Part shown: positions 3,001 through 22,510 of the stretch, piece by piece
Layout: each line of letters starts with the position of its first letter
Position numbering within the stretch: the stretch's first letter is position 1
IMG/VR virus record: IMGVR_UViG_3300005882_000024
Location: 1 to 22,627 of that record
Length of the DNA stretch: 22,627 nucleotides
Direction: 5' to 3' (one strand)
Source of the DNA: a virus
Program-made: the position numbers and the translations under genes
Notes under the pieces: generated by a model
Seen by the model: only the letters and a program-made list of their open reading frames with translations
What the model was told of the DNA's origin: nothing
Database searches by the model: none

Positions 3001-6000
3001 GCAAAGAAAGGAGATTTTCATTTATGCCAGCAATGATGTCTTGAGGTAGCGTTAAGCTGCTTAGTGCTTCATTAAAGTTGTCGTATTGTTGTTTTAGCAA
3101 TTCCTCGCGCTTTGCTTGTAACTGCTTAATCTTACTTGTGTAAGTTCCTCTTTCATCTATTCCAAATTCTTTAACTAAGAGAGCGCGATAAAGCGATTGT
3201 TCTTTTGCCGGCGCATTCTTAACAATTTCATCTATGGTTTTGTTGGTAACATTTACATAGTCATTAATTACGCCTAAGGTGTTGTTGATTGAATCCAAAG
3301 AATCGACAGAAGTTTCAAGAGAATCGTCAAGAGTCTGTTGTAATGCACTGGTTTTAACACCCACATAAGTTTTAAAGTACTCTAGCTGTCTTTTGCGTTC
3401 GTTTATTTTGTTTTCTAGCTGTAATACTTCGTTTTGCCATTCTTTCGAGCCCTTCTGGGTTTGAGTAAGGTTAAGTAATGCTTCTACTTCATTAGCGGCA
3501 AGTATACCAATGTCATTAAGTACAGTACTAAATGATTTTATGTAGTCAATTTTACCTTTTACAGTTGTCTGAAGCGAAGATTTTAACTCTTGTTTTATTA
3601 ACTCAGGAGTTTTACCTCTAAAACCTTTCTCAAACAAAGATTTGAATTCTGTGGCGGAGAAAATTTTATTAAAAGCCTCATCAAAAGATAATCCTTCTTT
3701 AATTAATGATTGTATTTGTTCTTTGATATACTCAACTGCCGCGCCTTCAATCCCTGCCATTGTTTCTACTTTTGCTTTGATGGCATTTTTGAGATCGGGA
3801 GGCAGAACTTCATCGCCTAAAGTGGAGAGCAATTTTATTGTTTTCTCTAAGAGCACCCAAGAAGTGTCACCGTAAATTTCTTTTAGTTGATCATAAAGAA
3901 CGTCCGCACCTTGAGAAGAAAGTTTATCTACATAAAGTTCAATAGTTGCTTTTATGTTTTTGAGGGTATATTTTTCGCCTGCAAACCGTTTAAGAGTAGC
4001 TTTTTCGGTGGCTGCAAGAATCTCAGAAAACTTTTCGGTAGTAATATTTGTAGCTTTAGCCGTTTGAATTAAATTATCTAAAAAGTCAGTAAGGCTATTA
4101 ATTGTTTCTAGCTCTCCTTCGAAATCCATAGAAGGAAGATTGCTTATTGATAAAGAATCTTTAAGTTCAACAAGTTTATCAAAGTAGGGCGCAGTCATAT
4201 CTTCAAGTTTCGAGAAATTTTCGGCAAGAGATTTCATTGTATTATATTTGGTTGATAATTTAAAACTTGCATCAGCGAAAGCTGCTTCCAATTTCTTTGT
4301 TTTTTCTTTGCTAGAAATAGGTTCTAAATTGATGTTTGTTATATCGGTAGCAAGCGAGAAAAGAGTTTCTTCAAACTTGCGATATGATTCAACAAAACCC
4401 GTTATTTTAGTGATTCGCTCGTCAATCTTTGCTTTGTCATACAAAGACAGAAATTCTTCTTCTTCCTTTGTTTTTGTTGATTTTTGCCGAATAATAGCTG
4501 CTAATTTAGAGATTTTTTGATATTCTTTCAGTACACCCTGCCACATCTTGAGGCTTTCATCTAATCCTTTAGTCATGCCAGCAAAGAAATCTGATATTTC
4601 AGCCGGCGTACGCCCTTTTACATAATTTGCCCAACCAGCAAAGTTCTTGGGTAAAGTCTTTTTACCTATCTGCTCCTGTGGCACAATCAATTTACTAAAG
4701 TCAGGTCTAAATTTCCACCAAGCAGCCTCTGGCAAGCTTTCAGGAATAGTTTTTTCTATAACTTCAGAGAGTTTTTCGCCTATTTTGTTGCCAAGCTCAA
4801 CAATTTGGTTTTCGACAGAACCAAAGAAGTCTTCTATAACTTTTATAGAGTTTTCATCTATTTCAAAGGAAATTGTTCCTTCAAAGGAAGAAATTTTCAT
4901 AAGCCACGGGAACATCTCTGTAAGCTTCTCTTCTGCGTCTTTTACTGCAGCTGCAAGCTTTTTTGTTTCCCATGTCGCTTTTTCTGTACCTTCGGTTGCT
5001 GCGTCTAACCGCTGTTTATATGTGTAATAAGTGTTGGTTACTTTCTTTACTTCTCGAGAAAGTCGTTCATAATGTTCGTTAAGTTGTTTGATTTTCTGAA
5101 TTTGGTTATAAATGAGCATTATAATGCCAGCGGCACCTGCGCCAATTGCCCAAGGGCTTAATAGTCCCTTGCCCAAAAAACTACCAATGGCAGAAAGTGT
5201 AGAAGTTCCTTCGGCTACTGCTTTAGAAATAATAGGAATTAATTTTTGAGTAAGACCAGCTGCCAACGGCACACCAATAAGAATAGCAAGTCTTCCTGGT
5301 TCAAGTGCTTCTGTTAAAGAGCGAAGTAAGGCAGAACCCACGCCTTCAAAGGCTGCAGTAAGTCTTGTTTTAAAACCCTGAAGAGCGGCAGCATAGGTGT
5401 TTAATCTAAGTTCAGCCATTCTTTGTGCTTCGCCGAGAGCCGTCATGCTGGAAGCGGCAGCTTCTGTAACTCTATCAAAATTTTGCATTACAGCAAGAAA
5501 ATCAGTATAACGCCTTGTCCCACCAGCCGCAACAGCAATTGCTCTTTGCTCGGACTCTGACAACTGATCCCATTTATCAGCTATAGCACTAAGAATATCC
5601 ATTACACCCATAGAAAGATATTCTTCTTTAGAGACGCCAATTAAAGAAGAGAGCGCAGTTTGCGCCGTTTCACGACCATACATACGGCCGATAACAGTAC
5701 GCCACGCAGTACCTATTTCTCTACCACTCTTACGTGTCGCTTCTACAGCAGCCGTAACAAGCCCAATAAAATCGTCAAGATCGGCATTGGTGGCCTGTGC
5801 AACCGTACCTATTTTAGTAATGGCATCCGCAAGTTCGTTAGAAGTAATAGCAAACGTAGAACTTACTTTAGCTATTTTGTCTATTGTTTTTGCATAATCT
5901 TCTGCACTTAACTTAAATTGTCTTGTTAAAGCTATGAGGGTTCGGCTGGATTCTTCTACGGAAAGGGTAGTAGCTTGCATAGCCAATAATGTGGCTTCTG

Positions 6001-7666
6001 TGGCTTGCGCAAGTTCTTCGCCACGAAAACCCTGTCTAGCAAAGTTGAGCATTATATCGAGAGCTTCGCCCGCAGCGACTTTGTATTTTGTTGCTAAAGC
6101 GATGCCGAGCCCCCAATAATGTTCTATGTCTTCCGTCTCTGACAAAACTTTCTGTATGTCAACCAACTTTGTTTGAAGTTCTGTCATAATACTTAAATAA
6201 GACTTAAACACCCTTGCCGAACCGTAGATCGCAGTTGTAGCAATACCCCATGTAGCAACCTTTTTTAGTGCAACAAAGGTGCTTTGAACGTTCTTAAGAG
6301 TAGAAACAAAATTGCCACTTTTTTCGTTAGCAATTTGAAATTTTTGTGGAATACCATCTAAAGATTTAGCTATATCATTTTGTGCTGTAGCATAAGCCTT
6401 TACACTTTTGGTAGCTTCGTCATAGGTATAGGTTACTCTAAAAACTGCTTTGTGCTGATCATCAAGAGCAATAGAAATATCCTTTGTCCATTTTTGTAAG
6501 TCCATTGGGATTTTCTTGACGTCAGGGCCGAAAGCAGCTTTCCATGCTTTAGCTATTTGTTGAGCTTGCGATTCTATTTGAGGAATGTCTTTTTGAATTG
6601 CTGAAGAAATTTGTCCAAATAATTGTTGTGCATCATAATTAAGCGTTGTAGCTGTGTCGTCCACTGCTTTTCTTGTTAACTCTAATCGTTGCGGGATGCC
6701 ATCTAGAGACTTAGCAACATCATTCTGTGCTGTTACATAAGCTTTAATGCTTTGAGTGGCATTGTCATACGCATAACTTACTCTAAAAATGGCGGTATGT
6801 TGTTCATCTAATGCAACAGAAATATCTCTTGTCCATTTTTGGAGATCCATAGGAGTCTGGTCGGCGCCAGCCCCCATAGTTGTTTTCCATATTTCAGCTA
6901 TCTGTTGAGCTTGTTTTTCTATTTCGGGCAATGCTTTTTTGATAGAGTCAGATACTTTTGTAAAAACAGCTCCTGAATCATATCGAAGAGTCTCGTTAAA
7001 AGACTTTAAAGTGGATTTTGCTACTTCTAATTTAGTGGGAATGCCTTGAATTCCCTTGGCTACATCATTTAATGCGTTAACATAAGCATAGATAGATTTT
7101 CTGCCTTCATCATAAGCATAAGAAATTCCATAAATAGCTTTTTTACCGTTTTCAAGCGGGACTTCGATAGACCTTGACCATTTTTGTAAATCTAAAGGCA
7201 TGGCGGCGGCCTCGCCGCCAAATATTTCCTTCCACGCTTTAGATATTTCTTGCGCTTCTTTCTTTATGGCAGGAGCTTGTGCTTTTATAGTTTTTGCAAT
7301 TTGTTCAAAAACCCTTGATGGCCTTGTTATTGCTTCAGCGCTAGCTTTCGACTGATCATCGAGCTCTGCAAGAACTTCTTTGTGTTTTTTCATTGATTCA
7401 GTTGCTTCTTTTATTGGCTTAGTATCAACTCTAGGCATTTTAAGTTGCTTTACCCGGCGTACCGTCGCCGAAAGCTCTTTATTAAAAGCTTGTGTTTGCT
7501 TCTCAACGGCGGAAACTTTGCGCTGAAGCGCAGTTAAACTATTATTAACATTTGATAAATCTAGAGATTTAAAGCGCTGCTCAATGGTTTCAATCATTTT
7601 GAGGGCTTCTGAGGGATCAACCTCTAGCCTTAATAGATAATCGGTTTGGTAAGCGTTGTCTGGCAT
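1..7666 (-). CDS. Tail tape measure protein (5' part; runs off left edge)
   Basis: This gene sets tail length and is probably the scaffold around which the tail tube polymerises. The frame is open from ATG at 7666-7664 to base 1, giving 2555 full codons with no stop, so it is incomplete at its C-terminus. A site reading AAGGGGGCC lies about 8 bases before the start, 14 bases after the stop of the chaperone extension. Residues 1-119 look helical, with a coiled-coil character. Residues 120-464 are three 115-residue repeats. Residues about 494-740 match the typical phage tape-measure core (segments such as VAAGEALDIMLNFARQGFRG and AVAAGGTRRYTDF). Residues about 790-860 hold hydrophobic segments (for example WAIGAGAAGIIMLIYNQI), as expected for a protein ejected with DNA. 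The rest is long, charged, helical sequence. Most siphophage tape measures are about 700-1500 residues, so this one is very large. Its position after the tail tube and frameshifted chaperones supports the call. Confidence 0.93.
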   Translation of the reverse strand, partial: MPDNAYQTDYLLRLEVDPSEALKMIETIEQRFKSLDLSNVNNSLTALQRKVSAVEKQTQAFNKELSATVRRVKQLKMPRVDTKPIKEATESMKKHKEVLAELDDQSKASAEAITRPSRVFEQIAKTIKAQAPAIKKEAQEISKAWKEIFGGEAAAMPLDLQKWSRSIEVPLENGKKAIYGISYAYDEGRKSIYAYVNALNDVAKGIQGIPTKLEVAKSTLKSFNETLRYDSGAVFTKVSDSIKKALPEIEKQAQQIAEIWKTTMGAGADQTPMDLQKWTRDISVALDEQHTAIFRVSYAYDNATQSIKAYVTAQNDVAKSLDGIPQRLELTRKAVDDTATTLNYDAQQLFGQISSAIQKDIPQIESQAQQIAKAWKAAFGPDVKKIPMDLQKWTKDISIALDDQHKAVFRVTYTYDEATKSVKAYATAQNDIAKSLDGIPQKFQIANEKSGNFVSTLKNVQSTFVALKKVATWGIATTAIYGSARVFKSYLSIMTELQTKLVDIQKVLSETEDIEHYWGLGIALATKYKVAAGEALDIMLNFARQGFRGEELAQATEATLLAMQATTLSVEESSRTLIALTRQFKLSAEDYAKTIDKIAKVSSTFAITSNELADAITKIGTVAQATNADLDDFIGLVTAAVEATRKSGREIGTAWRTVIGRMYGRETAQTALSSLIGVSKEEYLSMGVMDILSAIADKWDQLSESEQRAIAVAAGGTRRYTDFLAVMQNFDRVTEAAASSMTALGEAQRMAELRLNTYAAALQGFKTRLTAAFEGVGSALLRSLTEALEPGRLAILIGVPLAAGLTQKLIPIISKAVAEGTSTLSAIGSFLGKGLLSPWAIGAGAAGIIMLIYNQIQKIKQLNEHYERLSREVKKVTNTYYTYKQRLDAATEGTEKATWETKKLAAAVKDAEEKLTEMFPWLMKISSFEGTISFEIDENSIKVIEDFFGSVENQIVELGNKIGEKLSEVIEKTIPESLPEAAWWKFRPDFSKLIVPQEQIGKKTLPKNFAGWANYVKGRTPAEISDFFAGMTKGLDESLKMWQGVLKEYQKISKLAAIIRQKSTKTKEEEEFLSLYDKAKIDERITKITGFVESYRKFEETLFSLATDITNINLEPISSKEKTKKLEAAFADASFKLSTKYNTMKSLAENFSKLEDMTAPYFDKLVELKDSLSISNLPSMDFEGELETINSLTDFLDNLIQTAKATNITTEKFSEILAATEKATLKRFAGEKYTLKNIKATIELYVDKLSSQGADVLYDQLKEIYGDTSWVLLEKTIKLLSTLGDEVLPPDLKNAIKAKVETMAGIEGAAVEYIKEQIQSLIKEGLSFDEAFNKIFSATEFKSLFEKGFRGKTPELIKQELKSSLQTTVKGKIDYIKSFSTVLNDIGILAANEVEALLNLTQTQKGSKEWQNEVLQLENKINERKRQLEYFKTYVGVKTSALQQTLDDSLETSVDSLDSINNTLGVINDYVNVTNKTIDEIVKNAPAKEQSLYRALLVKEFGIDERGTYTSKIKQLQAKREELLKQQYDNFNEALSSLTLPQDIIAGINENLLSLRSRTINQTQAIKFSNELPAEVANIVNVLKRVAGSLSVPEIGRAIQEAQQIAVDPEALAKLTEEDLKRFKELIDITNNWQNTVVDYLFKGTNTTDVNELQTRLQILLASRINMPEATEITTKLIDQIIAKFGDLNNQANELSSLLSEVGKGKLKETYIDDIKEVVNTLGILKGKVKRGAISAQDIRLIGEIFSKFAYLRDNIEALKNEGALLESTLSNMPKALEDIFAGIGDILGGGKTFILKGQVVKFTADKLYEIQKAIATGTVDTVTYLSDDVIDYIKRLTPQQRAFVSNWIAQKIGVEVLKINENIAETVQSEMYGQFTDSIRKLEGYRALTGTQGIDTTNLTKAINQTYLSLKKALLDSLIELSSNFGKYGLKERQAEIQRLIDTISAMPLELPKATEDAERVMQNLIDLSKTINSYQSDLSRGRYATESLKQRLNLNSLIKDLPKEGFERRKAAEDLKNQILAEIKKAQNITDSIVRGMVIKQLQDTLESLDNIITAYDEGLQDNTWSDLKQTLADLPAAKGTEVEAGLRDKARSKIVSLIESIRSWRERLNSVAEYGVKGTEDLANKLLDYEGKLEKALDNPNLLTPQDIDNMTVATKEAEIAIAKIGDVSKEFSSLINPYIEALNSNSLETAEDVNNYIETLNELITTIKNSKFAGSAQAQKTIKDAEQKVVQGSAKLYNTLNSLIEQETYASFSNQIKAIESFRAKYKGLPGREGDVQQYEQILLDALRRSMADVQTNLVSKLVSAYRTGVAAGLPEADLQDITNLLNEVQKFKIPMSNDINAIKKAVKLLVSLEKRVGDLSSEFSKIDNEVQAWLAKKSKLPLELLKRQIELSTSVLDRTTLAAQGLKEVSELKELAQDITNSALRNAILFTLNSYQRYLQDIFSSIKEEPLAAIDLLEAKLEALTTKEYGKKAFASTEDSLTFAKEFNNTYGKFVEPLKNVLNTYKTIIGEDKAQKIKGDIEDFEKYDLYTEEKVQKEIEEWRYVPKVLR
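6275..7309 (-). repeat. Three tandem 115-residue repeats within the tape measure protein
   Basis: Residues 120-234, 235-349 and 350-464 of the tape measure are three copies of one unit. The shared DLQKW motif recurs exactly 345 bases apart (7178, 6833, 6488). Each unit runs from a helical part (F-x-x-I/V, then a Q/E-rich helix ending near AWK or IWK), through [LM]DLQKW, to a likely beta-hairpin (YAYD or YTYD) and a second helix ending at GIP. Over the 59-residue core, copies 2 and 3 share 43 identical residues and copies 1 and 2 share 33. The third copy diverges after GIPQKF. I do not recognise the unit as a named domain. It lies upstream of the recognised tape-measure core. Confidence 0.88.
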
Positions 7667-7680
7667 TTGCAGGCCCCCTT

Positions 7681-8708
7681 TTAATCACCGCCCCCAATAG
7701 CAATAAAGCCCATTTCATCTGTATTTGTTTCCATGTCATACATATATTTGTTAAAGTATTCGATTCGTTGGTTTTCTAAGTCTTTATGCCGTTTTTCGAG
7801 CCACTTATTTACTGTGGCATCATCGGCCATAAGAGCGTCGGGTGGGCGGTTAATAGGTTCGGAATAGATGTCGTCGTAGAGAAGTGCATAGTCTATAAAC
7901 AGAAGAAGGAGAGGATTGTTTTTTGAAAAGTCGAAAAGCTCGTTCTCGCGCCGGAAGACTTTAGCTATTCGCCATTTTCTTCGCCAGTGGGAGGAACGAG
8001 CAATTTTTCTAAAAAACTATCACTGTACTTTCTATAGAAATCCATTATTGAGCTCCACATGAGGTCGAGAATAACATCAGGCGCCTTGCCAACGTCTTCT
8101 ATGTCTTTCCATATCTCAGAGCCATCTTCACGCCTGACAAGTTTATAGATGTAATAAATACGCCTTTGTTGTTCCGCAAGGGCATCAGCAGTAGTAGAGA
8201 GATAGCGCTCTTTTTCGCCTACAAGAGCTTGAAGTTCCTGCATGGCTTCGTTATATTCTTCTTCGATTTTTTTAATCTTTTTAGCAAGAGATTCGCGTTC
8301 TTTGGGATCGTTAGTTTTTATAAAGTCCTTGCTTAGGGTAACGTATTTTTGTGCCGCTTCTGTAGCCTTCATCTGTGCTTTTTCAAGCGCTTTTTCGTTC
8401 TCTTTAGTCCAAATACCCTTTTCTTCAAGCATGTCCATAAGTTGTGATACAGTAGGTAATCCTTCGTCAAGACAGTTAAGGTATGCCTTGGCATGAATGT
8501 AATCTGCTTCAGATTTAACTTCAGCAGAAGGGTAGTAAACTCTTATTTTGTGTCCTTTTATGTCGTATATCCTATAACCTTCGTTTATCGTGTCTAAGGC
8601 TTCTTGTACTTCTGCGCCAGTAAGTCCTTCGGTGTCTTCGGGGTAAATTACAGCCTTTGCTTGCTCAACATCGATGTTGTCATTAAAAACCTCTTTCTTT
8701 TCACTCAT
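7681..8708 (-). CDS. Tail assembly chaperone, long -1 frameshift fusion product (lambda G-T-like)
   Basis: This is the predicted 342-residue product: the first 233 codons of the upstream chaperone frame, then a -1 slip at the T TTT TTA heptamer (8016-8010), then 109 codons in the new frame to TAA at 7683-7681. In the second frame the open region begins right after a TAG that overlaps the slip site. It has no ATG, GTG or TTG until an internal ATG far downstream (the M of ALMADD), so it has no plausible start of its own. The added part begins RKIARSSHW, continues with a basic stretch and then acidic/aromatic helical sequence (YALLYDDIY, NKWLEKRHKDLENQRIEYF), and ends GGGD. In phage lambda and many siphophages the G and GT proteins bind the tape measure and recruit tube subunits. 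Position just before the tape measure and just after the tube genes supports the same role. Slippage efficiency is unknown. Confidence 0.8.
7938..8016 (-). promoter_or_regulatory. Programmed -1 ribosomal frameshift signal: slippery heptamer plus downstream stem
   Basis: The minus strand reads T TTT TTA (8016-8010), exactly in the 0 frame of the chaperone gene (codons TTT at 8015-8013 and TTA at 8012-8010), which fits the X XXY YYZ rule. The same heptamer is used at the HIV-1 gag-pol junction. After an 8-base spacer (8009-8002) comes GCTCGTTC (8001-7994), perfectly complementary to GAACGAGC (7945-7938). This gives an 8-bp stem around a 48-base loop that contains the 0-frame TAG (7967-7965). 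A shorter GAAGA/TCTTC pairing can nest inside. Heptamer phase, spacer length and stem all fit a stimulated -1 shift. Confidence 0.82.
7965..8708 (-). CDS. Tail assembly chaperone, short product (lambda G-like)
   Basis: A 247-residue protein read to the 0-frame TAG. An AAGGAGG site lies 7-8 bases before its ATG. The N-terminal 95 residues look like a small alpha/beta domain. Residues about 96-185 are strongly helical, with E/K-rich heptads (KALEKAQMKATEAAQKY, KKIKKIEEEYNEAMQEL). Residues 185-235 (YYIYKLVRREDG, then MWSSIMDFYRKYSDSFL) are helical with aromatic residues. The stop is not the end of the reading unit, because the -1 frame stays open for another 109 codons. It sits between the tail tube and tape measure, where siphophages encode the G/GT chaperones. 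Those proteins keep the tape measure soluble and are absent from the finished virion. It is longer than lambda G (about 140 residues) because of the coiled-coil section. The family call rests on position and frameshift architecture more than on sequence. Confidence 0.78.
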   Translation of the reverse strand: MSEKKEVFNDNIDVEQAKAVIYPEDTEGLTGAEVQEALDTINEGYRIYDIKGHKIRVYYPSAEVKSEADYIHAKAYLNCLDEGLPTVSQLMDMLEEKGIWTKENEKALEKAQMKATEAAQKYVTLSKDFIKTNDPKERESLAKKIKKIEEEYNEAMQELQALVGEKERYLSTTADALAEQQRRIYYIYKLVRREDGSEIWKDIEDVGKAPDVILDLMWSSIMDFYRKYSDSFLEKLLVPPTGEENGE

Positions 8709-8789: not shown

Positions 8790-10445
8790 TTAGAAATCAG
8801 AAGGTGGAGAGTTGGTAATATAGAAGTCGCTAGCAACGAAATTGAGAGTCCTAGTAGAAGTAGTTTTGAGTTCTGCGCCGGAATCGGTATTGTTTATCAT
8901 TAATCTAGTAAACTTGTAAATCAGCTTTGTATTTCCATCTCTATCTAAAATCTCTACATAAAGATTCCGGGTATCAGCCGATTCAAGAAAATCATATTCG
9001 TCTATTGCTGTATCAGTAAGTATGGCGTTGTAAATATCTTCGATGTTCTCTGTTTCATCTAAGGTAATGTCACACGTTACATCCGCCGGCAACTGGGTGA
9101 CAAGCAGGTATGCTCCCTTAGAACCTAGTTCCTGACGACTATCTACATTAAAGTTCACATTAGCATTTGCCGAAGATATTCCAATAATCCTGCTTCCTTT
9201 AGAAGCATAGCTGTCAGCTAAATAGATTTTAACCTGGTCTTTAAGTACCTGTTGTAGCAAACCATTTGGTTCTACGTCGGTAATATAGTTTACGTAATAA
9301 CCCTGTCCTAACTCTATACCACCAATATAAGTATAGTCGGCAGAAACACTTGTAGTGGGAGCAGAGACAAGAGTAAAACTTCCGGTGTCGTAGTCTATTG
9401 TTCCGCCATCCGATAGAGTCCCGTCACCATTGTCAGTAACGCTGGTAGTGCCATCGACAAGAATTGAAACTGATCCGGCGACTATGGGAGTCTCAGACAA
9501 TGTAAGGGTTGTATTTACACCATCTATAACACCGCTCGGAGTCTCGCCAGAAACATTAACTTCGGGCCCCTTGATAGTAGTGTCGTTTATTAAGGTTGCA
9601 CCACTTATAAGAGTCCCGTCACCAGCGCGAACGCTAACAAGATTAAGTGCTGGGTGAGATATTGTTAAATATCCGTCAATAGTACAACTTACCTGTTCGG
9701 TTAGGAGTTGACCGTAAAAGAGCGCAGGTCCATCAAGAGGTTGATCGTAAGTATAAACAACACTTACCATTGTAGGAGCTACACCTTCGTAACTCCCTAT
9801 ATTAATTGAGTTGCCTACACTAATAGAAGTAACATCTGTTATGTCTTTGCCGGCAATATCAGCTGGTTGTTCAGCTACTGCCTGGAGAATCTTGGTGGGT
9901 GTTTGCGCTAATTCTGCCACACCACTACTTACTTTAACTTTTCTTTCTACTATTGTAGCCGCTTTAGAACCTTTGAGGACTGTATATTGCAAACCCTGAA
10001 AAGAGAAAGTAATTGTACTAGAACCATCAACATTCCACGACCAGCCAATAGATGATAATGCACCGTCTTTAACTTCATAAGATTGGAGGATTTGTGGAGT
10101 AATATCCTTTATTTGGTTGCGCGCGATTGTAGAAAACACAAAATGCGAAGTTTTTTCCGCAAAGTCTTCGCTTGAAATGATCGTAGGTAAATCGTTTTCT
10201 GATAAATCATAAGAAAGGTCTTTGAGTAAAGCGAGATAGGGGTACAAAGACCCCATCTCGCGCACCCTAAGAGTTACATCTGTTTGCATTTCTTCAGGAA
10301 TGGTATTGCTTGCTGTATATGAACCAAGTTCTTCGGGTCTTGTTGAAATTATACGAGGTGATGCACGCACCTGCTCAGACCTATACATATTATGCCCGTT
10401 AACAAAAGGTCTGAATTGCTGTTGTTGTATTACAGTTGTACTCAT
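8790..10445 (-). CDS. Tail tube protein paralogue 2, carrying an extra inserted domain
   Basis: This 551-residue protein is probably a major subunit of the tail shaft. It is co-linear with the 471-residue protein encoded just upstream. The first 50 residues share 29 identities, and the last 140 or so are more similar still (motifs SYASKG, ISSANAN, RQELGSK, QLPADVTCD, TRNLYVEIL, TDSGAELKTT). The main difference is a 74-residue domain at residues 300-373, nearly identical to one in a head decoration protein of this phage. Residues about 245-298 form another small beta segment shared with the paralogue. The sequence is almost all beta, and the C-terminal pattern (NLYVEIL, then LIYKF, then LNFVASDFYI) suits a tube beta-barrel. 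The ribosome site AAGGAGG lies 8-9 bases before ATG. A terminator-like hairpin follows the stop. A sheath role is less likely because no small separate tube gene follows. Family identity is inferred from position and fold pattern. Confidence 0.72.
   Translation of the reverse strand: MSTTVIQQQQFRPFVNGHNMYRSEQVRASPRIISTRPEELGSYTASNTIPEEMQTDVTLRVREMGSLYPYLALLKDLSYDLSENDLPTIISSEDFAEKTSHFVFSTIARNQIKDITPQILQSYEVKDGALSSIGWSWNVDGSSTITFSFQGLQYTVLKGSKAATIVERKVKVSSGVAELAQTPTKILQAVAEQPADIAGKDITDVTSISVGNSINIGSYEGVAPTMVSVVYTYDQPLDGPALFYGQLLTEQVSCTIDGYLTISHPALNLVSVRAGDGTLISGATLINDTTIKGPEVNVSGETPSGVIDGVNTTLTLSETPIVAGSVSILVDGTTSVTDNGDGTLSDGGTIDYDTGSFTLVSAPTTSVSADYTYIGGIELGQGYYVNYITDVEPNGLLQQVLKDQVKIYLADSYASKGSRIIGISSANANVNFNVDSRQELGSKGAYLLVTQLPADVTCDITLDETENIEDIYNAILTDTAIDEYDFLESADTRNLYVEILDRDGNTKLIYKFTRLMINNTDSGAELKTTSTRTLNFVASDFYITNSPPSDF
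9327..9548 (-). other. Mobile-looking 74-residue beta domain inserted in tail tube paralogue 2
   Basis: Residues 300-373 (from GETPSG to DYTY) are absent from the 471-residue paralogue, which passes directly through this point. They align without gaps to residues 128-201 of the 224-residue decoration protein, with 51 of 74 identical. The centre is almost invariant (SILVDGTTS, TDNGDGTLSDGGT). The pattern (DGVN-T, then PIVAG-SILVDG, TDNGDG, YxTG, DY) resembles small beta-sandwich domains that I recall from many phage virion proteins, but I cannot assign a named family. Over the best-conserved 68 bases the two DNA copies are only about 70% identical, mostly by synonymous change. Confidence 0.88.
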
Positions 10446-10475
10446 ATTATTCCCCTCCTTTTAGTTTAGAATCAA

Positions 10476-11891
10476 TCAAAAGTCAGCAGCAGGAGAGGAG
10501 GTTATGTAAAAGTCAGAAGCAGTAAAATTAAGAGTTCTAGTGGCTGTGGTCTTAAGTTCAGCACCAGAATCTGTGGTATTGAGCATGAGTTGGGGGAATT
10601 TGTAAACAAGCTGAACGTTGCCATTGTTGTCCAAAATTTCTACATAGAGATTTCTGGTGTCATCAACTTGCAGGAAATCGTATTCGTCTGAAGGGCTATT
10701 TCCCATAATAGCGTCATAGATAGCTTCGACATTTTCGGTTTCGTCAAGCGTAAGATCACAAGTGACGTCAGCAGGCAACTGAGTGATAGCAAGGTATGGA
10801 TCTTTACTACCAAGTTCTTGCCTGTTATCGGTGTTAAAGTTAGCGTTGGCATTAGCTGAAGAAACACCTATAAGCCTATCTCCCTTTGACGCATAGCTAG
10901 GCGCAAGGAATATTCTTGCCTGACTCTTAAGAGTCTGGGTAAGCATACCAGGCATTTCTTCATCGGTTATATAGGTAACTACATAATCTGCAGCAGCAAA
11001 AACCGCATCAGAAGTAACTGTAGTGCCACTAATTGAATTTGAAGTACCAAAAAGAGCACCATTTGCATCTCTTATACTTATAAGGTTTATACCATTGTGA
11101 GATACAGTGACAGTATTTGACACCCCGTCACCTGTAACGGTTTCAGAAACAACTCTTCCGTAGAAGAGCGCAGGATCGCCATCTTGCTGATCAAATGTAT
11201 AAAGAACACTTATGGATGTAGGAGCTACACCGTTGTATGTGCCAACGTTAATATTGGCGCCTGAAGCAATGGAACAAACGTCGGTTATATCTTCGTCAGC
11301 AATGGAAGAAGGAGCTTCTGCTACAACCTTCAATATTTTGGTGGGTGCAAAAGCAAGAGTTGCTACTCCACTACTAACGCCTACGCTATGTTCAAGCAAA
11401 GGCGCAGCCTTAGTTCCTTTGTGAACAATGTAGGATGAACCCTGGAAAGAGAAATTGATAGTACTTGAGCCGTCGACAGCCCAAGACCAACCTATACTAT
11501 TAAGAGAAGCTTTATTAACAAAGTAGTTCTTGAAAATTACAGGTGTTATATCGCCAATTTCAGCTCTTGCAATACGCGGGAAAACAAAAGTTGTTCTTTT
11601 TTCAGCGAAATCGGCGCTTGAAATAGTTGTGGGAAGGCCAGCTTCCTCAAGATCGTAGTTGATGTCTTTGATCAAGGCAAGGTAGGGATAAAGGATTCCC
11701 TGTTCTCTTACCCTGAGCGATACATCGGATTGTATTTCCTCGACAAAGGAATTTCCGGGAGTGTAAGCACCAAGTTCTTCCGAACGTGTGGAAATTACCC
11801 GGGCAGTCGCCCTTGCCTGTTCAGCTCTATATATATTATGTCCATTTGCAAAAGGACGTATCTGCTTCTGTTGAAGCGGTTCATACGGCAT
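10476..11891 (-). CDS. Tail tube protein paralogue 1 (plain form)
   Basis: This 471-residue, mostly beta protein is the likely major tail tube subunit. ATG at 11891 follows a GAGGAGG site by about 8 bases, and only 13 bases separate it from the preceding gene. Residues 1-240 and 305-471 align along the whole of the next gene's product and probably form the tube domain. Residues about 245-300 (starting near TVTGDGVSN) look like a small extra beta domain that interrupts it, comparable in role to the Ig-like domain of lambda gpV. That comparison is architectural, not a sequence match. The C-terminal part has conserved blocks RQELGSK, QLPADVTCD, TRNLYVEIL and SGAELKTT. It lacks the 74-residue insertion of its paralogue. 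Position between the head-tail joining genes and the chaperone/tape measure genes is the usual place for the major tail protein. Confidence 0.75.
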   Translation of the reverse strand: MPYEPLQQKQIRPFANGHNIYRAEQARATARVISTRSEELGAYTPGNSFVEEIQSDVSLRVREQGILYPYLALIKDINYDLEEAGLPTTISSADFAEKRTTFVFPRIARAEIGDITPVIFKNYFVNKASLNSIGWSWAVDGSSTINFSFQGSSYIVHKGTKAAPLLEHSVGVSSGVATLAFAPTKILKVVAEAPSSIADEDITDVCSIASGANINVGTYNGVAPTSISVLYTFDQQDGDPALFYGRVVSETVTGDGVSNTVTVSHNGINLISIRDANGALFGTSNSISGTTVTSDAVFAAADYVVTYITDEEMPGMLTQTLKSQARIFLAPSYASKGDRLIGVSSANANANFNTDNRQELGSKDPYLAITQLPADVTCDLTLDETENVEAIYDAIMGNSPSDEYDFLQVDDTRNLYVEILDNNGNVQLVYKFPQLMLNTTDSGAELKTTATRTLNFTASDFYITSSPAADF

Positions 11892-11904
11892 TTAACTTCC
11901 CTCC

Positions 11905-12621
11905 TCAAAGAGCATTTATTTGAATTATTGCTTTGTGGGCATTAATGTCCATACCCGGAAGGCTCGTGTCCCTATAAGAAAGAGCTCGGGGGACAAGAGC
12001 GTCGGTAGCAGAATAAACGAAAGAATCATTAATAAAAGCAAGTCCTGTAGATTTGTCCCACAGAACAGGTTCTGTAGTAAGATCCATAATAGGGATTTTG
12101 TTTCGGTATAGATCGATTATCCAATCAGCCATTTCGCTTTTCTCTAAATTATTAGAAGCTATAATGTCTAGTTGGATAAAGGGATTGCTTTGAATCAGTC
12201 CGCCACCAAGTTCGCCGCCAGATATTTTTGATGACGGAACAGAAACAGCAAAAAAAGGCATAACCGCTTTAAGAGCTTCTGCGGATAATGTGTAAGAAAA
12301 GTGGTACTCTAGCACTGCATACTTAGGTTTATAGAATGAAATAGTTACCTTGTCGGTAGGCTGTGCTATGCCCGTGAGGTCGAATATTCCACTCAATGGG
12401 GCATAACGCACATAAGAAGTTTCAACGCCATTCACCAAAACCGTGGGGATAAAGGAATTGCCGTTGACATCTATATAAATCGAGTGAAATGGTGTAGGGG
12501 TTTGCCAAAAATTATCACCAAGATAGTTGGCTTCCTCTTCTTTAATCTCGTATAATCCGGCATTCATAACTTGATATTGTAAATCATAATAAACGCTTTT
12601 AAGTATGGAGGTTGTATTCAT
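11905..12621 (-). CDS. Probable tail terminator or tail completion protein
   Basis: A 238-residue protein of mixed alpha/beta character. ATG is preceded by AGGAGGG, and it follows the previous gene by 11 bases. The N-terminus is helical (SILKSVYYDLQYQVM). A beta-rich middle follows (TVLVNGVETSYVRYAPL), then VTISFYKPKYAVLEYHFSY. The later part (QLDIIASNNLEKSEMADWI, then IDLYRNKIPIMDL) has the strand-helix-strand look of tail terminators. The gene just before the major tail protein commonly encodes the terminator that caps the tube and docks it to the head. I assign it by position and pattern and see no unique motif. A neck protein of another kind is possible. Confidence 0.5.
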   Translation of the reverse strand: MNTTSILKSVYYDLQYQVMNAGLYEIKEEEANYLGDNFWQTPTPFHSIYIDVNGNSFIPTVLVNGVETSYVRYAPLSGIFDLTGIAQPTDKVTISFYKPKYAVLEYHFSYTLSAEALKAVMPFFAVSVPSSKISGGELGGGLIQSNPFIQLDIIASNNLEKSEMADWIIDLYRNKIPIMDLTTEPVLWDKSTGLAFINDSFVYSATDALVPRALSYRDTSLPGMDINAHKAIIQINAL

Positions 12622-12632
12622 TTAAAACCCTC

Positions 12633-13298
12633 CTATCGCTTTTCCGCAGCCTTAGTCCTTAGAATTGCCGCAAACTTTTCTTTCATTCTTTTTGCCGCCA
12701 TCGCCCACGAACTTCTTAATAAAGGATATGCAGGAACAACCGAAGGTTTTCCGCCCATAAAAGGAGAAAATGAGAAAAATGTTAATGGTTTTCCAGCAGC
12801 TGGGCCCGAAATAATATCGCCTATTGTTTTGTGCCAGACGAAAGTTGCTTGTGTTGGAATGTCAAGCGACATTAATCCGAAAGCTTCGACATACTGACCG
12901 AATTCTAAGGCGCGCCAATATGGCACTGGCCTCTGAAGCGAATATTCTATAGAACGAATTTCGCCAGCCATATCAGTGTACACAACATTCTTAGGGCCTG
13001 TGTCTGAAGTTTTTGAATCTAATGTGGCAACATTTCCCCAAGCTAAGCCAAACTGTAATCCGCTGGCGCTAAAAACTACCGATTCTTCATTGATAGCCTC
13101 AAGATATTGATTGAATACATATTGAAAATACGGTTTGATTTTTGGTGTTTCGTCTAAAACTAATTCAGGGTTTTTAAAAGCCCGCTTCAATGTATCTGTA
13201 GCTTCTTTTGCTGAATCTTTGAATTCAGAGCGGACGTTTTCAAGAAATTTTAGAAAATTTTCTTTGCCGTGGGCTTCTACTTTAACTTTAAGCTTCAT
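12633..13298 (-). CDS. HK97 gp10-like head-tail joining / minor tail protein
   Basis: A 221-residue protein. Its ATG overlaps the previous gene's TGA (ATGA, 13298-13295), so translational coupling is likely. The N-terminus has a strand then a long charged helix (residues 5-42: KVKVEAHGKENFLKFLENV). The middle has YWRALEFGQ (127-135) and the C-terminal part has PAYPLLRSSW (189-198), followed by a basic helix (MAAKRMKEKFAAIL). The combination of an aromatic 'W-x-ALEFG' segment and a late 'P-x-x-PLLR-x-x-W' segment is typical of gp10/minor-tail-U-type proteins in the head-tail junction clusters of siphophages and prophages. It is longer than the usual 110-150 residues because of added middle segments. 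Position between a putative stopper and a putative tail terminator agrees. Confidence 0.6.
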   Translation of the reverse strand: MKLKVKVEAHGKENFLKFLENVRSEFKDSAKEATDTLKRAFKNPELVLDETPKIKPYFQYVFNQYLEAINEESVVFSASGLQFGLAWGNVATLDSKTSDTGPKNVVYTDMAGEIRSIEYSLQRPVPYWRALEFGQYVEAFGLMSLDIPTQATFVWHKTIGDIISGPAAGKPLTFFSFSPFMGGKPSVVPAYPLLRSSWAMAAKRMKEKFAAILRTKAAEKR

Positions 13299-13726
13299 GC
13301 CAACCGCCTCGCATGAATTAAGAGGCCTATTGGTTGGCTACTATTACCCACGGGAATAATGCTCGCTACTTCATACTTGGCGCTATGTTTTGCGCCGCCT
13401 GCCCATTCATCTAATATTTCAAATTCTTTAATCGAAGACCAATCTACATTCATTAAAGAAGAGTCGGATTTTATCATTATTACAGAGTCGCCTTGCATAA
13501 CCCTTAAAGGTGCTAATATTTCAGGTTCAAAAGCGCCTTCAGGAACCTTTACGGCTGTATCAGTGACAACTGTTTCGGTAGGCGTTGCTCCAAAAGCATA
13601 GTTGGTATTAGTTACCGGCGGCTTTTTAACGGAGATGGTAACTGAATAAAGGGAAGAAAACACAGAATAAACAGAAGAAAAAGCGTCTTCCAAAAGTGTA
13701 CTGAGGTTGATCGCGTCTATATTCAT
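13295..13726 (-). CDS. Putative head closure / stopper-type connector protein
   Basis: A 143-residue protein with an amphipathic N-terminal helix (residues 5-28: AINLSTLLEDAFSSVYSVF) followed by beta-rich sequence (AVKVPEGAFEPEILAPLRVM, DSVIMIKSDS, AKYEVASIIPV, IGLLIHARRL). Small beta-barrel proteins in this slot are usually head-completion stoppers (lambda FII or SPP1 gp16 type). The ribosome site is weak (GGCGG about 9 bases before ATG), and the start lies 11 bases after the stop of the gene before it, so it may depend on coupling. Its end overlaps the next gene by four bases. The role is inferred from order and fold pattern only. Confidence 0.45.
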   Translation of the reverse strand: MNIDAINLSTLLEDAFSSVYSVFSSLYSVTISVKKPPVTNTNYAFGATPTETVVTDTAVKVPEGAFEPEILAPLRVMQGDSVIMIKSDSSLMNVDWSSIKEFEILDEWAGGAKHSAKYEVASIIPVGNSSQPIGLLIHARRLA

Positions 13727-13737
13727 GGCATCACCGC

Positions 13738-14133
13738 CTAATATTTAACAACTATACCGAAACCCAATAGCCGTTTTTTTAATTCTTTAAGCTTTTGTGT
13801 ATGCTTTTCTATTTCTTTGTCTACGGTATTTTTGGGGTTCTGTGCAACTGCAAGTGTACCAATAGAGACACGTTGCGCGCCTGGAATCTGCGAAGCAACT
13901 TCACGCACAATATTTAATACTACCGTAAGTGCTATGTACAGCTTAGCAAGGCTAGTCTGGGCTGAATTTATGACAAGTGAGTCATTTGAAATCGTTGCTA
14001 TTTTCTCGGGTATTTCTATTACAGCTTCTTCTATACGAGAAGCTATTGTTTCATCAGGTTCATCAGAGATGTATTTCATCGCTTTCCGACGAACAATCTC
14101 TATAATATCCTGTATGTTAGAATCTATGATCAT
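13738..14133 (-). CDS. Putative head-tail connector (adaptor-type) protein
   Basis: A 131-residue protein, mostly helical. Residues 1-20 form a helix (IQDIIEIVRRKAMKYI). Residues 30-48 and 60-85 form further helices (SLAKLYIALTVVLNIVREV), and the C-terminus is a basic helix (KLKELKKRLLGFG). All-helical proteins of this size two genes after the major capsid protein are commonly the adaptor ring that extends the portal (HK97 gp6 or SPP1 gp15 type). The start has a G-rich site (GGGGGGAAG) just before ATG, and the following CCCC could pair with it, so translation might be somewhat restrained. There is no diagnostic motif, so the assignment is positional. Confidence 0.42.
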   Translation of the reverse strand: MIIDSNIQDIIEIVRRKAMKYISDEPDETIASRIEEAVIEIPEKIATISNDSLVINSAQTSLAKLYIALTVVLNIVREVASQIPGAQRVSIGTLAVAQNPKNTVDKEIEKHTQKLKELKKRLLGFGIVVKY

Positions 14134-14152
14134 GGGGCTTCCCCCCGTCTAA

Positions 14153-14545
14153 TCATTTCTTTTTGTTCTGTTTCTTATTTTTGTTACTCTTTGGCCGCCC
14201 AGGTCGTTTAGGAGACTGTTTTTTATCCTTTTTATCTTCCTTCTTCGTTTCTTCTTTAGGTTTTTCATCCTTTACTTCCTCGAGTCTTTCCTCATCTGCT
14301 TCTTTGGGCGCAACTTCTTTTACTTCAACAACTTCCGAAGTAACCATGACGGCTTTCTGTACAACCTCGTCTTCAACTGTAATTTCTTTATCGCAGCGCT
14401 CAAATATTCCATCAGCCAAAGCTTTGTCTATTCTTTTTTTGTATCGCTTATACCAATATTCAGAAACATAAACTTCTTTGTCGGGCGGGAAAAGAATCCA
14501 TCCTACTTTCCTATATTCCTTCTTTACATTCTTTAAAATCATCAC
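14153..14545 (-). CDS. Small virion-region protein with lysine-rich, AT-hook-like C-terminus
   Basis: A 130-residue protein with GTG at 14545 and an alternative ATG directly after it at 14542. AGGGAGG lies 7 bases before the GTG. The start overlaps the previous stop (GTGA), so coupling is likely. Residues 1-55 look folded (KKEYRKVGWILFPPDKEVYV, then a basic helix). Residues 56-75 are beta-like. Residues 76-110 alternate Glu and Lys runs, and the tail is very basic with KRPGRPK at 113-119, close to the AT-hook core (R/P-GRP). The C-terminus ends in lysines. This suggests a disordered nucleic-acid-binding tail, which would be odd for a connector. Possible roles are a capsid-interior DNA-contacting protein or an unstructured linker. 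I do not recognise the family. Confidence 0.6.
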   Translation of the reverse strand: MMILKNVKKEYRKVGWILFPPDKEVYVSEYWYKRYKKRIDKALADGIFERCDKEITVEDEVVQKAVMVTSEVVEVKEVAPKEADEERLEEVKDEKPKEETKKEDKKDKKQSPKRPGRPKSNKNKKQNKKK

Positions 14546-14823
14546 TCTTCATCCTCCCTTTTTAAAAAAGCTTTCTTTACCAACGAATAGACATACTTTC
14601 CGTCATTTCGGAAAAGGAAAAAGCAAAGGTCTTTAAGTTTAAGTACTTTAGAAGTTTCCCAGAAACATTGTTCTATCGGAACTCTATTGCATTTTTCTTC
14701 TAAGCGCGGGAGATCAAGCGCTATCAAATCAAGATGAGTGTCTACAAAAGATTCGGGTATATCACGCGCCTTGCAGGCTTCTTTTATTATCCCTATCATT
14801 GCGTCAATTTTCTTCTTCAACAC
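14542..14823 (-). CDS. Hypothetical small helical protein after the major capsid gene
   Basis: About 93 residues from a GTG at 14823. An upstream in-frame GTG at 14829 would sit only one base from the AGGAGG site, whereas the 14823 GTG is 7 bases from it, so I prefer the latter. The protein is helical and basic at both ends, with four cysteines (17, 45, 53, 67 from this start) but no CxxC pair. Segments include DAMIGIIKEACKARDIPESF and KDLCFFLFRNDGKYVYSLV. It lies directly after the capsid terminator, in the first slot of the connector cluster, and its stop overlaps the next start. I do not recognise it. Confidence 0.6.
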   Translation of the reverse strand: MLKKKIDAMIGIIKEACKARDIPESFVDTHLDLIALDLPRLEEKCNRVPIEQCFWETSKVLKLKDLCFFLFRNDGKYVYSLVKKAFLKREDEE

Positions 14824-14841
14824 AATCACGCCTCCTTCATT

Positions 14842-14873
14842 AAAAAAGGGAAAGGGGGATTAACCCCCTACCC
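14842..14873 (-). terminator. Rho-independent terminator directly after the major capsid gene
   Basis: Three bases past the capsid TGA, the minus strand reads GGGTAGGGGG, loop TTAAT, CCCCCTTTCCC, then TTTTTTA. The five-G/five-C stem plus one A-T pair is extended by GGG/CCC across a small internal loop. Six Ts follow at 14847-14842. With genes on the same strand continuing at 14823, it is probably an intra-operon attenuator that gives more capsid than connector mRNA. Confidence 0.75.
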
Positions 14874-14875
14874 TA

Positions 14876-15805
14876 TCAGAGGGTAACTTTGTAGAATCTA
14901 AGAGGATCAAAGATACCCATTGCAACTCTTCTTGCACCGCGGTATCCGATCAAGTATTCTTTCCTTCTGTCTTCGAGTTGAAGAACGTCGGTCTGGCCTC
15001 TCTGCCATACTTTTCCATGAGCCCCATCAGCATAAATGAAGTAAATGGTGTTAGTGGGGAAGGTCGTAACCAAATCACCATCACGTGCAGAAGTGGAAAC
15101 TTTCTCTATCTTTCCAGACCAGAAGTAGCTAAGTTCTTTCCCGTTGTAATTCTTAAGTGCATCCATTTTCAAGGCTTCAATCGTTGAGTGTTCAGCAAGC
15201 ATTACTATCTTTGTTTCGTCAATAAGTCCTTTATCAACAAAATAGCTAACAACATTTCTAAGGTTGTCAATTGTGATTGCTGCCCATGAAGTGCTGTTGC
15301 CGTATTCAGCACTAATGGCCGACTCAAGAAGCGACAACCAGTCTTTATCTTCTTTATAGAGCAAGTTGTTGAGCAGCGTGGTTCTTGCTCTTCTTCTCTG
15401 ATCAAGAGCCCCCTGAAGGACAAAGGATTCAGGAACATAAGCATTTCCAGCAAGAATGTATTCGGGGAATACGGTGTAACCTGGCTGAGCAAGAGTCTTC
15501 TGAGGAGCGGCACCAAACTGAGTCATGTAGATGATAGGTACTTTTTCTTGTTCAGAATCGTTGTAGAAACCAGGCAATACACTGGGGTCAGTTATTGTCT
15601 GGAACTCAAAGAGCCTTCTGGCATAACCAATGTTAATTGAATTTATAGAAACCTTGTCGGTGACAGTTGCGGCTTCCTTCTTCGTAAGCCTTTCGGTATC
15701 TTCGTCAATGGCACTAGCCATGTCCTGGCAATTCAAAATTATTGCTTCTCTATCACCCTCGGCGGTTTTTCTATAAAGGGTTTTAAGTTCTTCTAAACTT
15801 GGCAT
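14876..15805 (-). CDS. Major capsid protein (HK97-like fold inferred)
   Basis: This 309-residue protein probably forms the procapsid lattice. ATG at 15805 follows AAAGGAGG by about 9 bases. The helical N-terminus (LEELKTLYRKTAEG) could be a short delta-like or contact arm. The middle resembles capsid proteins of this class: a beta region (INSINIGYARRLFEFQTI, APQKTLAQPGYTVFPEY), then a spine-helix-like segment (DKDWLSLLESAISAEYGNS) and ALKMDALKNYNG. The C-terminal beta strands (VVTTFPTNTIYFIYAD-type, then GYRGARRVAMGIFD) fit the axial domain. Order (portal, protease/scaffold, decoration, capsid) and the strong terminator right after it support the call. I see no catalytic or cross-linking residue that I can assign. 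Confidence 0.82.
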   Translation of the reverse strand: MPSLEELKTLYRKTAEGDREAIILNCQDMASAIDEDTERLTKKEAATVTDKVSINSINIGYARRLFEFQTITDPSVLPGFYNDSEQEKVPIIYMTQFGAAPQKTLAQPGYTVFPEYILAGNAYVPESFVLQGALDQRRRARTTLLNNLLYKEDKDWLSLLESAISAEYGNSTSWAAITIDNLRNVVSYFVDKGLIDETKIVMLAEHSTIEALKMDALKNYNGKELSYFWSGKIEKVSTSARDGDLVTTFPTNTIYFIYADGAHGKVWQRGQTDVLQLEDRRKEYLIGYRGARRVAMGIFDPLRFYKVTL

Positions 15806-15846
15806 TATGCGAACCTCCTTTAGCTTATTCGGTTTTCAGATATAAA

Positions 15847-16521
15847 TTAGTATTTAAATTCAGCTACGATGTAGTCGTTTGATACTTCTACAACCTTGCC
15901 GATTAAGACAGTATCGGGAATTTCGTAATCATTAACAACGCTGGTGGCCGGCGCAACAGCGAGGGTGTATTCGCCAGTAGCGTAGTTAACCGTTCCGCCA
16001 TCGCTTAATGTCCCATCCCCGTTGTCGGTTATAGAAGTCGTACCGTCAACCAAAATTGAAAGAGTACCAGCGACAATTGGTTGATTAAGTGTAGTAAACG
16101 TCTTGTTTACGCCATCAGTTACTCCTGTGGGTGTTTCGCCGGTAACTTTGTTGACTGCATTTGTATATTTGGAATTCAAAGTTGACCAATATAAAGAATC
16201 ACCAGCAGAAAAAACAACATTTGCTAAAACGGCGTTTTTAATAGCAACTTCTACCCCAGGAATTCTCTTTATTACAACGGCATAATCAGAAGTAGAAACG
16301 GTGTGGAAAACAACACCGTAGTAATCAAGATTAAAATTGGGATCAGAATAATCAATATCAGCGTTAGAAATAGGTACTACATTACTACCAGAAAGCTTTA
16401 CAGGAAAGGCACTAACAATATTTACACTAGGCTTCAAACCTGTTTGTTTAGAAACAGGATTTGGAGCCCAGTAAACATCAACATATTCAGCATAAGGGTT
16501 TTCAAAAACGGTATATGGCAT
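15847..16521 (-). CDS. Capsid decoration protein paralogue 2, with inserted domain (DUF2190-like)
   Basis: This 224-residue protein likely binds the outer capsid surface. Residues 1-124 and 202-224 align with the whole of the 138-residue protein encoded just before it (shared blocks MPY-VF-N-YAE, DVYWAP, KQTGLKPSV or RQTGLKPSV, FHT, IPGVE, YWST, GKVVEV, DYIVAEFKY). Between NAV and DTV it carries the 74-residue domain (128-201) also found in tail tube paralogue 2. A second smaller difference is a short insertion near residues 53-66 (DIDYSDPNFNL). The 'VFSAGDSLYWST' and 'IGKVVEV' pattern is what I recall for DUF2190-type decoration proteins. A site reading AAGGGGG lies 8 bases before ATG, 25 bases after the previous stop. 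Confidence 0.76.
   Translation of the reverse strand: MPYTVFENPYAEYVDVYWAPNPVSKQTGLKPSVNIVSAFPVKLSGSNVVPISNADIDYSDPNFNLDYYGVVFHTVSTSDYAVVIKRIPGVEVAIKNAVLANVVFSAGDSLYWSTLNSKYTNAVNKVTGETPTGVTDGVNKTFTTLNQPIVAGTLSILVDGTTSITDNGDGTLSDGGTVNYATGEYTLAVAPATSVVNDYEIPDTVLIGKVVEVSNDYIVAEFKY
15919..16140 (-). other. 74-residue beta domain inserted in decoration paralogue 2
   Basis: Residues 128-201, from GETPTG to DYEI, match residues 300-373 of tail tube paralogue 2 over their full length. It sits in a loop of the decoration fold: the flanks YTNAV and DTVLIGK correspond to YTNAA and DTVEIGK in the plain paralogue, which has only a few residues between them. Clean boundaries on both sides suggest insertion of a whole folding unit that projects from the capsid surface. 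Target and function cannot be read from sequence. Confidence 0.88.
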
Positions 16522-16546: not shown

Positions 16547-16963
16547 TTAGTACTTAAATTCAGCAACAATATAATCGCTCTGTACTTCTACCACTTTGCC
16601 AATTTCGACTGTGTCGCTAGCAACAGCGGCATTGGTGTAATTCTTGTTTACCGTACTCCAATACAAAACATCACCAACAGCAAAAGCTACGTTGGCACAA
16701 ATGGTCGTAGAAATTCTAATTTCTACACCAGGAATAGGTTTAATTACGACCCCATATTCATCGGTGGCAGTCGTATGGAAGAGAATTCCGTAAGGGACAT
16801 CAGTAGCGCCAATTGCGACAAGCGCACCGCTGTCAATCTTGACAGGCGTACCGCTTGCCAATTCTACGCTAGGTTTAAGACCCGTCTGCCTTGAAACGAC
16901 GCCAGGTGCCCAATAAACATCAATGTTTTCAGCATAGGAATTTGTGAAAACTTCGTATGGCAT
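16547..16963 (-). CDS. Capsid decoration protein paralogue 1, plain form (DUF2190-like)
   Basis: This 138-residue, all-beta protein probably stabilises the mature capsid as an external decoration. GAGGAGG lies 7 bases before ATG. It begins only 2 bases after the protease/scaffold gene ends. Features are MPYEVFTNSYAENIDVYWAP at the N-terminus, GTPVKIDSG, YGILFHT, VVIKPIPGVEI, FAVGDVLYWST and the C-terminal IGKVVEV-DYIVAEFKY. The 'GDVLYW' turn followed by 'IGKV' near the C-terminus is characteristic of DUF2190-like small decoration proteins encoded before phage capsid genes. The assignment is from recall, not from a search. It is the shorter ancestor-like form of the next gene. Confidence 0.76.
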   Translation of the reverse strand: MPYEVFTNSYAENIDVYWAPGVVSRQTGLKPSVELASGTPVKIDSGALVAIGATDVPYGILFHTTATDEYGVVIKPIPGVEIRISTTICANVAFAVGDVLYWSTVNKNYTNAAVASDTVEIGKVVEVQSDYIVAEFKY

Positions 16964-22493: not shown

Positions 22494-22510
22494 CAAGCTA
22501 CCTCCTCCTT

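Follow-up and report, generated by a model that had tools for sequence, protein, structure and literature searches.

Mycobacteriophage Douge carries Ig-like domains on its capsid and tail-tube proteins, and these domains bind host-surface glycans (PMC13033339). In SPP1, the tail tube protein gp17.1 and its FN3-extended form gp17.1*, made via frameshifting, are mixed in the tube at 3:1 (PMC8718954), and in the 936 lactococcal phages binding modules decorate the neck, tail and distal tail (PMC6669499). The I-domain of P1 gp23 is beta-rich, protrudes outward and contacts the neighbouring capsomer (PMC12810830), while the inserted domain2 of the YSD1 tail protein packs against the adjacent ring subunit (PMC8718954). 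Both the display of one kind of domain on head and tail, as in Douge, and the existence of promiscuous phage domains are already known.

Here, we focused on a 22,627-base metagenomic virus fragment that forms a whole IMG/VR virus record (the window). Like Douge, this virus has one class of small beta-sandwich on both the head and the tail shaft (PMC13033339), here as predicted from sequence. In Douge, the domains are found at the C-termini of the major capsid and tail tube proteins, with one gene each, whereas in the window virus they are internal insertions in the second copies of duplicated decoration and tail genes and match no Ig-like Pfam model. As with gp17.1 and gp17.1* of SPP1 and TpeX of the 936 phages, plain and domain-bearing tail subunits come from one virus; there they are mixed in one tube (PMC8718954, PMC6669499), and here they are known from genes. 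Unlike in those phages, where a programmed translational frameshift adds the domain C-terminally, the window virus has gene duplication and internal insertion, and it has them in the head too. The novelty lies in the sequence family, in its insertion in the second copies of two duplicated genes in one genome next to a plain, single-copy sibling virus, and in gene duplication, not frameshifting, as the probable route to mixed virions.

The virion genes of the window are all encoded on the minus strand in the standard order (Table 1), with small head-tail genes between the major capsid candidate and the pair of tail genes. The plain and long copies are identical at 62% of the aligned positions for the tail pair and at 63% for the decoration pair. 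The plain decoration protein matches Pfam Phage_cement_2 (PF09956) with an E-value of 5e-5 and 24.0 bits, exactly at the curated cut-off of 24, and its orthologue in the sibling virus scores 20.6 bits, just under this cut-off. The match of the plain copy supports the assignment of this pair as putative decoration proteins. The PHROG and Pfam libraries gave no family match for the tail proteins, and we infer their identity as tail tube proteins from gene order alone.

Several other features of the region were observed. The tape measure candidate contains three 115-residue tandem repeats near its N-terminus (6325-7315, minus strand; starts at 118, 233 and 348), with 43-59 identities per 100 residues between copies. 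A clear terminator-like hairpin (AGGGGG...CCCCCT followed by a T run; 14853-14869, minus strand) is located immediately 3' of the major capsid gene. Adjoining the terminase gene, positions 22086-22496 (minus strand) encode a small hydrophobic protein with an HExRH motif (RHEFRHYKDARTLTPLVFIITY). A protein resembling it (KHEYRHIAQQRWLSPPLFFILY; L003:3358-3780) is encoded close to the tail genes of L003, an unrelated virus, and has a PHROG protease match (E 1e-4); the two proteins gave a short BLASTP match (E 2e-6, single comparison). A 5.3-kb contig (L019, IMGVR_UViG_3300005101_000089) contains a terminase that matches that of the window at 100% over 811 residues, and stops short of the decoration genes.

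Table 1. Features of the window, in order of position, with the evidence for each.
Feature	Position	Strand	Evidence or remark
Tape measure protein candidate, at least 2555 aa, runs off the record	2..7666	-	Length, gene order, composition
247-aa gene between tail protein and tape measure genes, assembly-chaperone position	7965..8708	-	Gene order only
Long tail (tube) protein, 551 aa, second copy, domain carrier	8790..10445	-	62% identical to plain copy
Inserted 74-residue domain, tail copy	9327..9548	-	Residues 300-373 of long tail protein; predicted beta strands at moderate confidence, block means about 56-81
Second native beta region of tail protein, residues 247-295; insert interrupts before strand 383-388	9561..9707	-	Three-way alignment with plain paralogue and L008; moderate-confidence strands
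Native beta module of tail proteins, residues 162-235	9741..9962	-	In plain and long copies; block pLDDT 63-89; matches phage neck, tail and tailspike domains
Plain tail (tube) protein, 471 aa, first copy	10476..11891	-	Gene order ahead of tape measure gene; single-copy orthologue in L008
Major capsid protein candidate, adjoins decoration pair downstream	14876..15805	-	Weak PHROG major head protein match (E 0.024); 49% identical to syntenic L008 protein; gene order
Long decoration protein, 224 aa, second copy, domain carrier	15847..16521	-	63% identical to plain copy outside inserts
Inserted 74-residue domain, decoration copy	15919..16140	-	Residues 128-201 of long decoration protein; 51/74 identical to tail copy; pLDDT about 86-96
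Plain decoration (cement) protein, 138 aa, first copy	16547..16963	-	Pfam PF09956 Phage_cement_2; single-copy orthologue in L008
Protease/scaffold candidate	16966-18285	-	Virion gene order
Portal	18303-19640	-	Virion gene order
Terminase large subunit	19637-22072	-	Virion gene order

Read on the minus strand, both inserted segments encode 74 residues, and the plus strand of both contains stops. The ungapped alignment of the two (BLASTP 97 bits, E 8e-34) has a BLOSUM62 score of 266, compared with a maximum of 69 among 2000 shuffles, and these segments are the sole copies of the domain in the whole record. The residue ranges given in the initial annotation were correct, its count of 51 identities without gaps was reproduced, and the carrier is indeed the downstream (second) gene of each duplicated pair. 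Its claim that the neighbouring paralogue lacks exactly that domain is right about the absence and too strong in its "exactly", as linkers and a 10-residue insert also differ. The insert boundaries are clean within a few residues. Short linkers flank the tail copy on both sides, and in the long decoration protein the additions beyond the domain are a few linker residues and the 10-residue insert at about residues 57-66. This ten-residue stretch (16324-16353, minus strand; around DYSDPNFNLDYY) is acidic/aromatic in composition and is missing from both the plain copy and the sibling virus. HMM searches and profile comparison were also used to look for a diverged equivalent of the domain in the plain copies, and none was detected. 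The domain HMM gave no real match to the plain tail protein (E 5.3) and did not report the plain decoration protein.

A sibling virus was found through alignment of the tail protein (loci L007-L009, repeated as L017 and L018). Its locus L008 is syntenic with the window (53% identity for the terminase and 49% for the capsid protein) and contains the decoration gene (135 aa) and the tail gene (476 aa) each as a single, plain copy. A search for the domain in the 48.8-kb and 24.2-kb records of the sibling found none, and the HMM detected nothing meaningful in L008. The window paralogues are 61-63% identical to each other, versus about 43-51% to L008. As the paralogues are nearer to each other than to L008, which has single plain genes, both duplications are probably specific to the window lineage and followed its split from L008. 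The simplest reading of these sequences is that both genes were duplicated and that one copy of each then gained the domain in the window lineage; domain loss in the sibling is an alternative for which the data leave some room. Soon after the tail gene (L008:12464-14351), the sibling contig contains cell-like genes (thymidylate-kinase-like and outer-membrane-like, judged by eye from translations). No tape measure gene was seen in this contig, as if it were a truncated or rearranged provirus.

Relatives of the module in other viruses were found by scans and by HMM searches, the latter covering 1012 open frames. An unrelated virus (L004) encodes a 346-aa protein that carries the module at 67% identity (L004:9611-10651) and is presumably a tail protein, given its position ahead of a tape measure gene. 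In the L003/L034 virus, the module is part of a baseplate J protein (L034:16751-18016; domain E 1e-39) that matches PHROG baseplate wedge (E 4e-62). A downstream putative tail fibre of this virus has a tandem array of the module (L003:427-1899). The first ~45 and last ~25 residues of the module also recur in this array as separate repeated sub-units. The array is broken by a frame break near L003:450. Partial, more distant copies are found in L005/L006 and L012-L016. Like the window proteins, the structural protein ORF18 of the archaeal virus psiM2 (a Methanothermobacter virus) has a copy of the module, near its N-terminus, and this copy is distant (E 5e-5); unlike the window, psiM2 has one gene with no duplication seen, and its copy is diverged (36% identical in the alignment). 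The module recurs in non-homologous virion proteins, namely a decoration protein, two unrelated tail proteins, baseplate J, a tandem array and psiM2 ORF18. It is a promiscuous virion module.

Searches of reference collections gave few matches. With tblastn, nothing was found in 50,697 phage records using either the window copy (E 0.1) or the baseplate J copy (E 1), and the tail protein likewise has no close relatives among these records. A pattern scan gave no relatives of the decoration protein. Sequence searches of the PDB gave no significant match, and a PDB profile search gave only weak ones, including repetitive beta-helix spikes and P1 gp23 (E 0.69). No Pfam or PHROG family names or covers the domain, and the Pfam Ig-like models (Big_1, Big_2, I-set, FN3) are unmatched by the domain copies, the L003 and L004 copies and the host proteins. 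The nearest family is DUF2460 (PF09343), to which the best single copy scores 14.8 bits against a cut-off of 30.4, though in register. One copy from the L003 array aligns in register to DUF2460 positions 98-173 (E 0.02), and the whole array protein reaches an E-value of 8e-4.

For structure prediction, alignments A12 and A4 were used for folding, and mixed MAFFT alignments that smeared the plain paralogues over the insert were left out. The domain divides each host protein into two parts. AlphaFold2 modelled the segment in the long decoration protein with block pLDDT values from 86 to 96, and most of the backbone is below 60. In support of the initial annotation, the segment is predicted to fold confidently on its own in this protein, and it is not predicted to be buried in the core fold; for the tail protein the model is weak. 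That model is poor overall (mean pLDDT 43.8, with terminal parts under 35), and the strands of the insert are predicted at moderate confidence.

The decoration-copy domain was compared with 1000 chains using VIA-align. The best match among them is the extra domain of the R4C distal tail protein (PDB 8gtc chain G; Z 7.6, 2.1 A, 70 residues), followed by the P1 capsid protein gp23 (PDB 9ukm; Z 6.9, 29% identity over 73, residues 197-299). Further matches include a contractile injection system baseplate protein, tailspike, neck and tail-tube proteins, the YSD1/Chi tail proteins (Z 4.5 and 4.9) and, at a lower rank, the T7 tail complex. Phage virion proteins fill nearly all top rows, and Ig variable-type chains have Z scores of 3.5-4.6, versus up to 7.6 for phage virion domains; matches with Z below 8, the tool's caution line, may reflect merely a common arrangement. 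Foldseek searches of the PDB and BFVD gave no match under E 0.001, probably because most of the decoration model has low confidence. The listed BFVD matches nonetheless include several major capsid and tail proteins.

We take residues 197-299 of P1 gp23 to be the outward-protruding, beta-rich I-domain (PMC12810830). The structural match spans the whole module, and among the 1012 open frames searched by HMM, P1 gp23 ranks first of the non-members, a weak match (E 0.0055) in which it has the stretch PIxxGxxxIxVxxxxSxxDNGxGxL, including the DNGxGxL motif, in common with the module. Sequence and structure point to the same region of P1 gp23. Unlike the module, the I-domain is part of the major capsid protein itself and has longer loops. 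The R4C distal tail domain has an E-value of 0.34 in the domain HMM search. It is the best structural match; however, the module stays under the cut-off of the Pfam family (PF09343), and the R4C domain is located at the tail tip, not on the shell or shaft. The best explanation of the models is that the module is a small beta-sandwich with the same general fold as the GTA-type distal tail extra domain and the P1 I-domain.

The native beta module at residues 162-235 occurs in all three tail proteins, including that of L008; it and the insert match one and the same segment of a solved tail tube protein. The models suggest that this native module and the insert share a general fold. A module of this fold is probably present already in the plain tail protein, and the insert adds another, nested in the adjoining region.

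The two domain copies have intact frames and differ at 91 of 222 bases (DNA identity of only 59%). Third codon positions agree at 21 of the 74 codons and differ at 53, and the same codon is used at 13 of the 51 identical residues, compared with 17.5 expected at saturation under the codon usage of the window. The saturated synonymous sites and the low DNA identity rule out recent copying of the domain inside this genome. As 51 residues are identical and only 13 of them have identical codons, the coding sequences indicate protein-level purifying selection on the module. The L004 copy is identical to the two window copies at 49 and 48 of 74 residues. Together with the saturated sites, this equal closeness to L004 makes separate acquisition possible, and the domain copies may be old or may have been acquired separately. 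Since neither copy is much closer to its partner than to L004, a coordinated placement on head and tail is not required. The proposal that the same unit had been placed on head and tail therefore stands as a description of the end result, and not as a single intragenomic event. Two further ideas were rejected. Avoidance of DNA homology between the copies is not significant (13 versus 17.5 identical codons, P 0.11), and for an origin of the insert by tandem duplication of the native tail module, profile comparison gave a probability of 1.8% and the HMM sees no second copy in the long tail protein.

The explanation that we prefer, with a probability of roughly 0.55, is as follows. The two segments would represent a single promiscuous virion module, about 74 residues long, that folds on its own. 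The decoration and tail (tube) genes would each have been duplicated in this lineage, with the second copy holding the module as an insertion. Plain and module-bearing forms would both be made and co-assembled, such that only part of the head and tail subunits carry the module, which would make low-affinity contact with the host surface or a surrounding polymer, an effect that the high copy number would multiply. Each of the four genes has a strong Shine-Dalgarno site (anti-SD energies of -10.2 to -13.1, the long decoration gene being the weakest), and the gaps within the gene pairs are only 25 and 30 bases; promoter and terminator scans between the paralogues gave nothing useful. As the frames are intact, the ribosome-binding sites good and the genes adjacent, both forms are probably made. 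We infer that the module-bearing subunits co-assemble with the plain ones, in a mixed or position-specific manner, and display the module outward. Low-affinity contact with host or polymer would be the most likely role; two observations favour weak adhesion, namely the recurrence of the module in unrelated structural settings and the glycan binding of the Ig-like domains of Douge. A bolder version, which we put forward only tentatively, is that the head-surface and tail genes were duplicated independently, that one copy of each received the same ligand-binding module, and that one ligand specificity is displayed at sub-saturating density over the whole particle, with duplication replacing frameshifting.

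The module may instead stabilise the particle and bind no ligand, bridging capsomers or decoration subunits on the head and clamping ring subunits on the tail. The P1 I-domain and the YSD1/Chi tail proteins are among its structural matches (Z 6.9, 4.5 and 4.9), the former touches a neighbouring capsomer (PMC12810830) and YSD1 domain2 packs on the adjacent ring subunit (PMC8718954), and the tail copy lies within a region that already holds native beta modules. However, the module has different neighbours in the decoration protein, the two tail proteins, baseplate J and the array, which a ligand-binding or self-contained unit fits better, and the sibling virus manages without it. We regard stabilisation as a serious but unlikely alternative. 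Somewhat less likely still is that the long paralogues build distinct substructures, such as certain tail rings or capsomers, with the module marking special positions. Separate genes permit such specialisation, the paralogues are ~38% diverged and the long decoration protein has its extra 10-residue insert, but the good Shine-Dalgarno sites on all copies fit mixing equally well.

The wide scatter of the module across non-homologous proteins would also be expected of a largely neutral mosaic passenger that recombines among virion genes and is tolerated in surface loops. We consider this improbable, as 51 of 74 residues were kept despite saturated synonymous sites, which implies long-term selection at the protein level. 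That one sequence was duplicated or made chimeric by misassembly is hardly credible, even though the window is a metagenomic fragment and no other record that spans these genes turned up: 91 bases and 53 third codon positions differ between the copies, whose frames are intact, a repeat search (seed 10, minimum 25 nt) sees no repeat between them, and the independent contig L004 carries a homologous insertion.

The Douge precedent for coverage of head and tail by one kind of domain limits the surprise of this finding. The window nevertheless constitutes a clean natural experiment, in which the edges of a mobile module can be traced in two parts of the virion, both within one genome and by comparison with a single-copy sibling. 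In different viruses, decoration, tail, baseplate and fibre proteins are connected by a sequence family that has no Pfam entry. Should plain and decorated subunits co-assemble, gene duplication would be a second route to partial decoration of the virion, besides the programmed frameshift.
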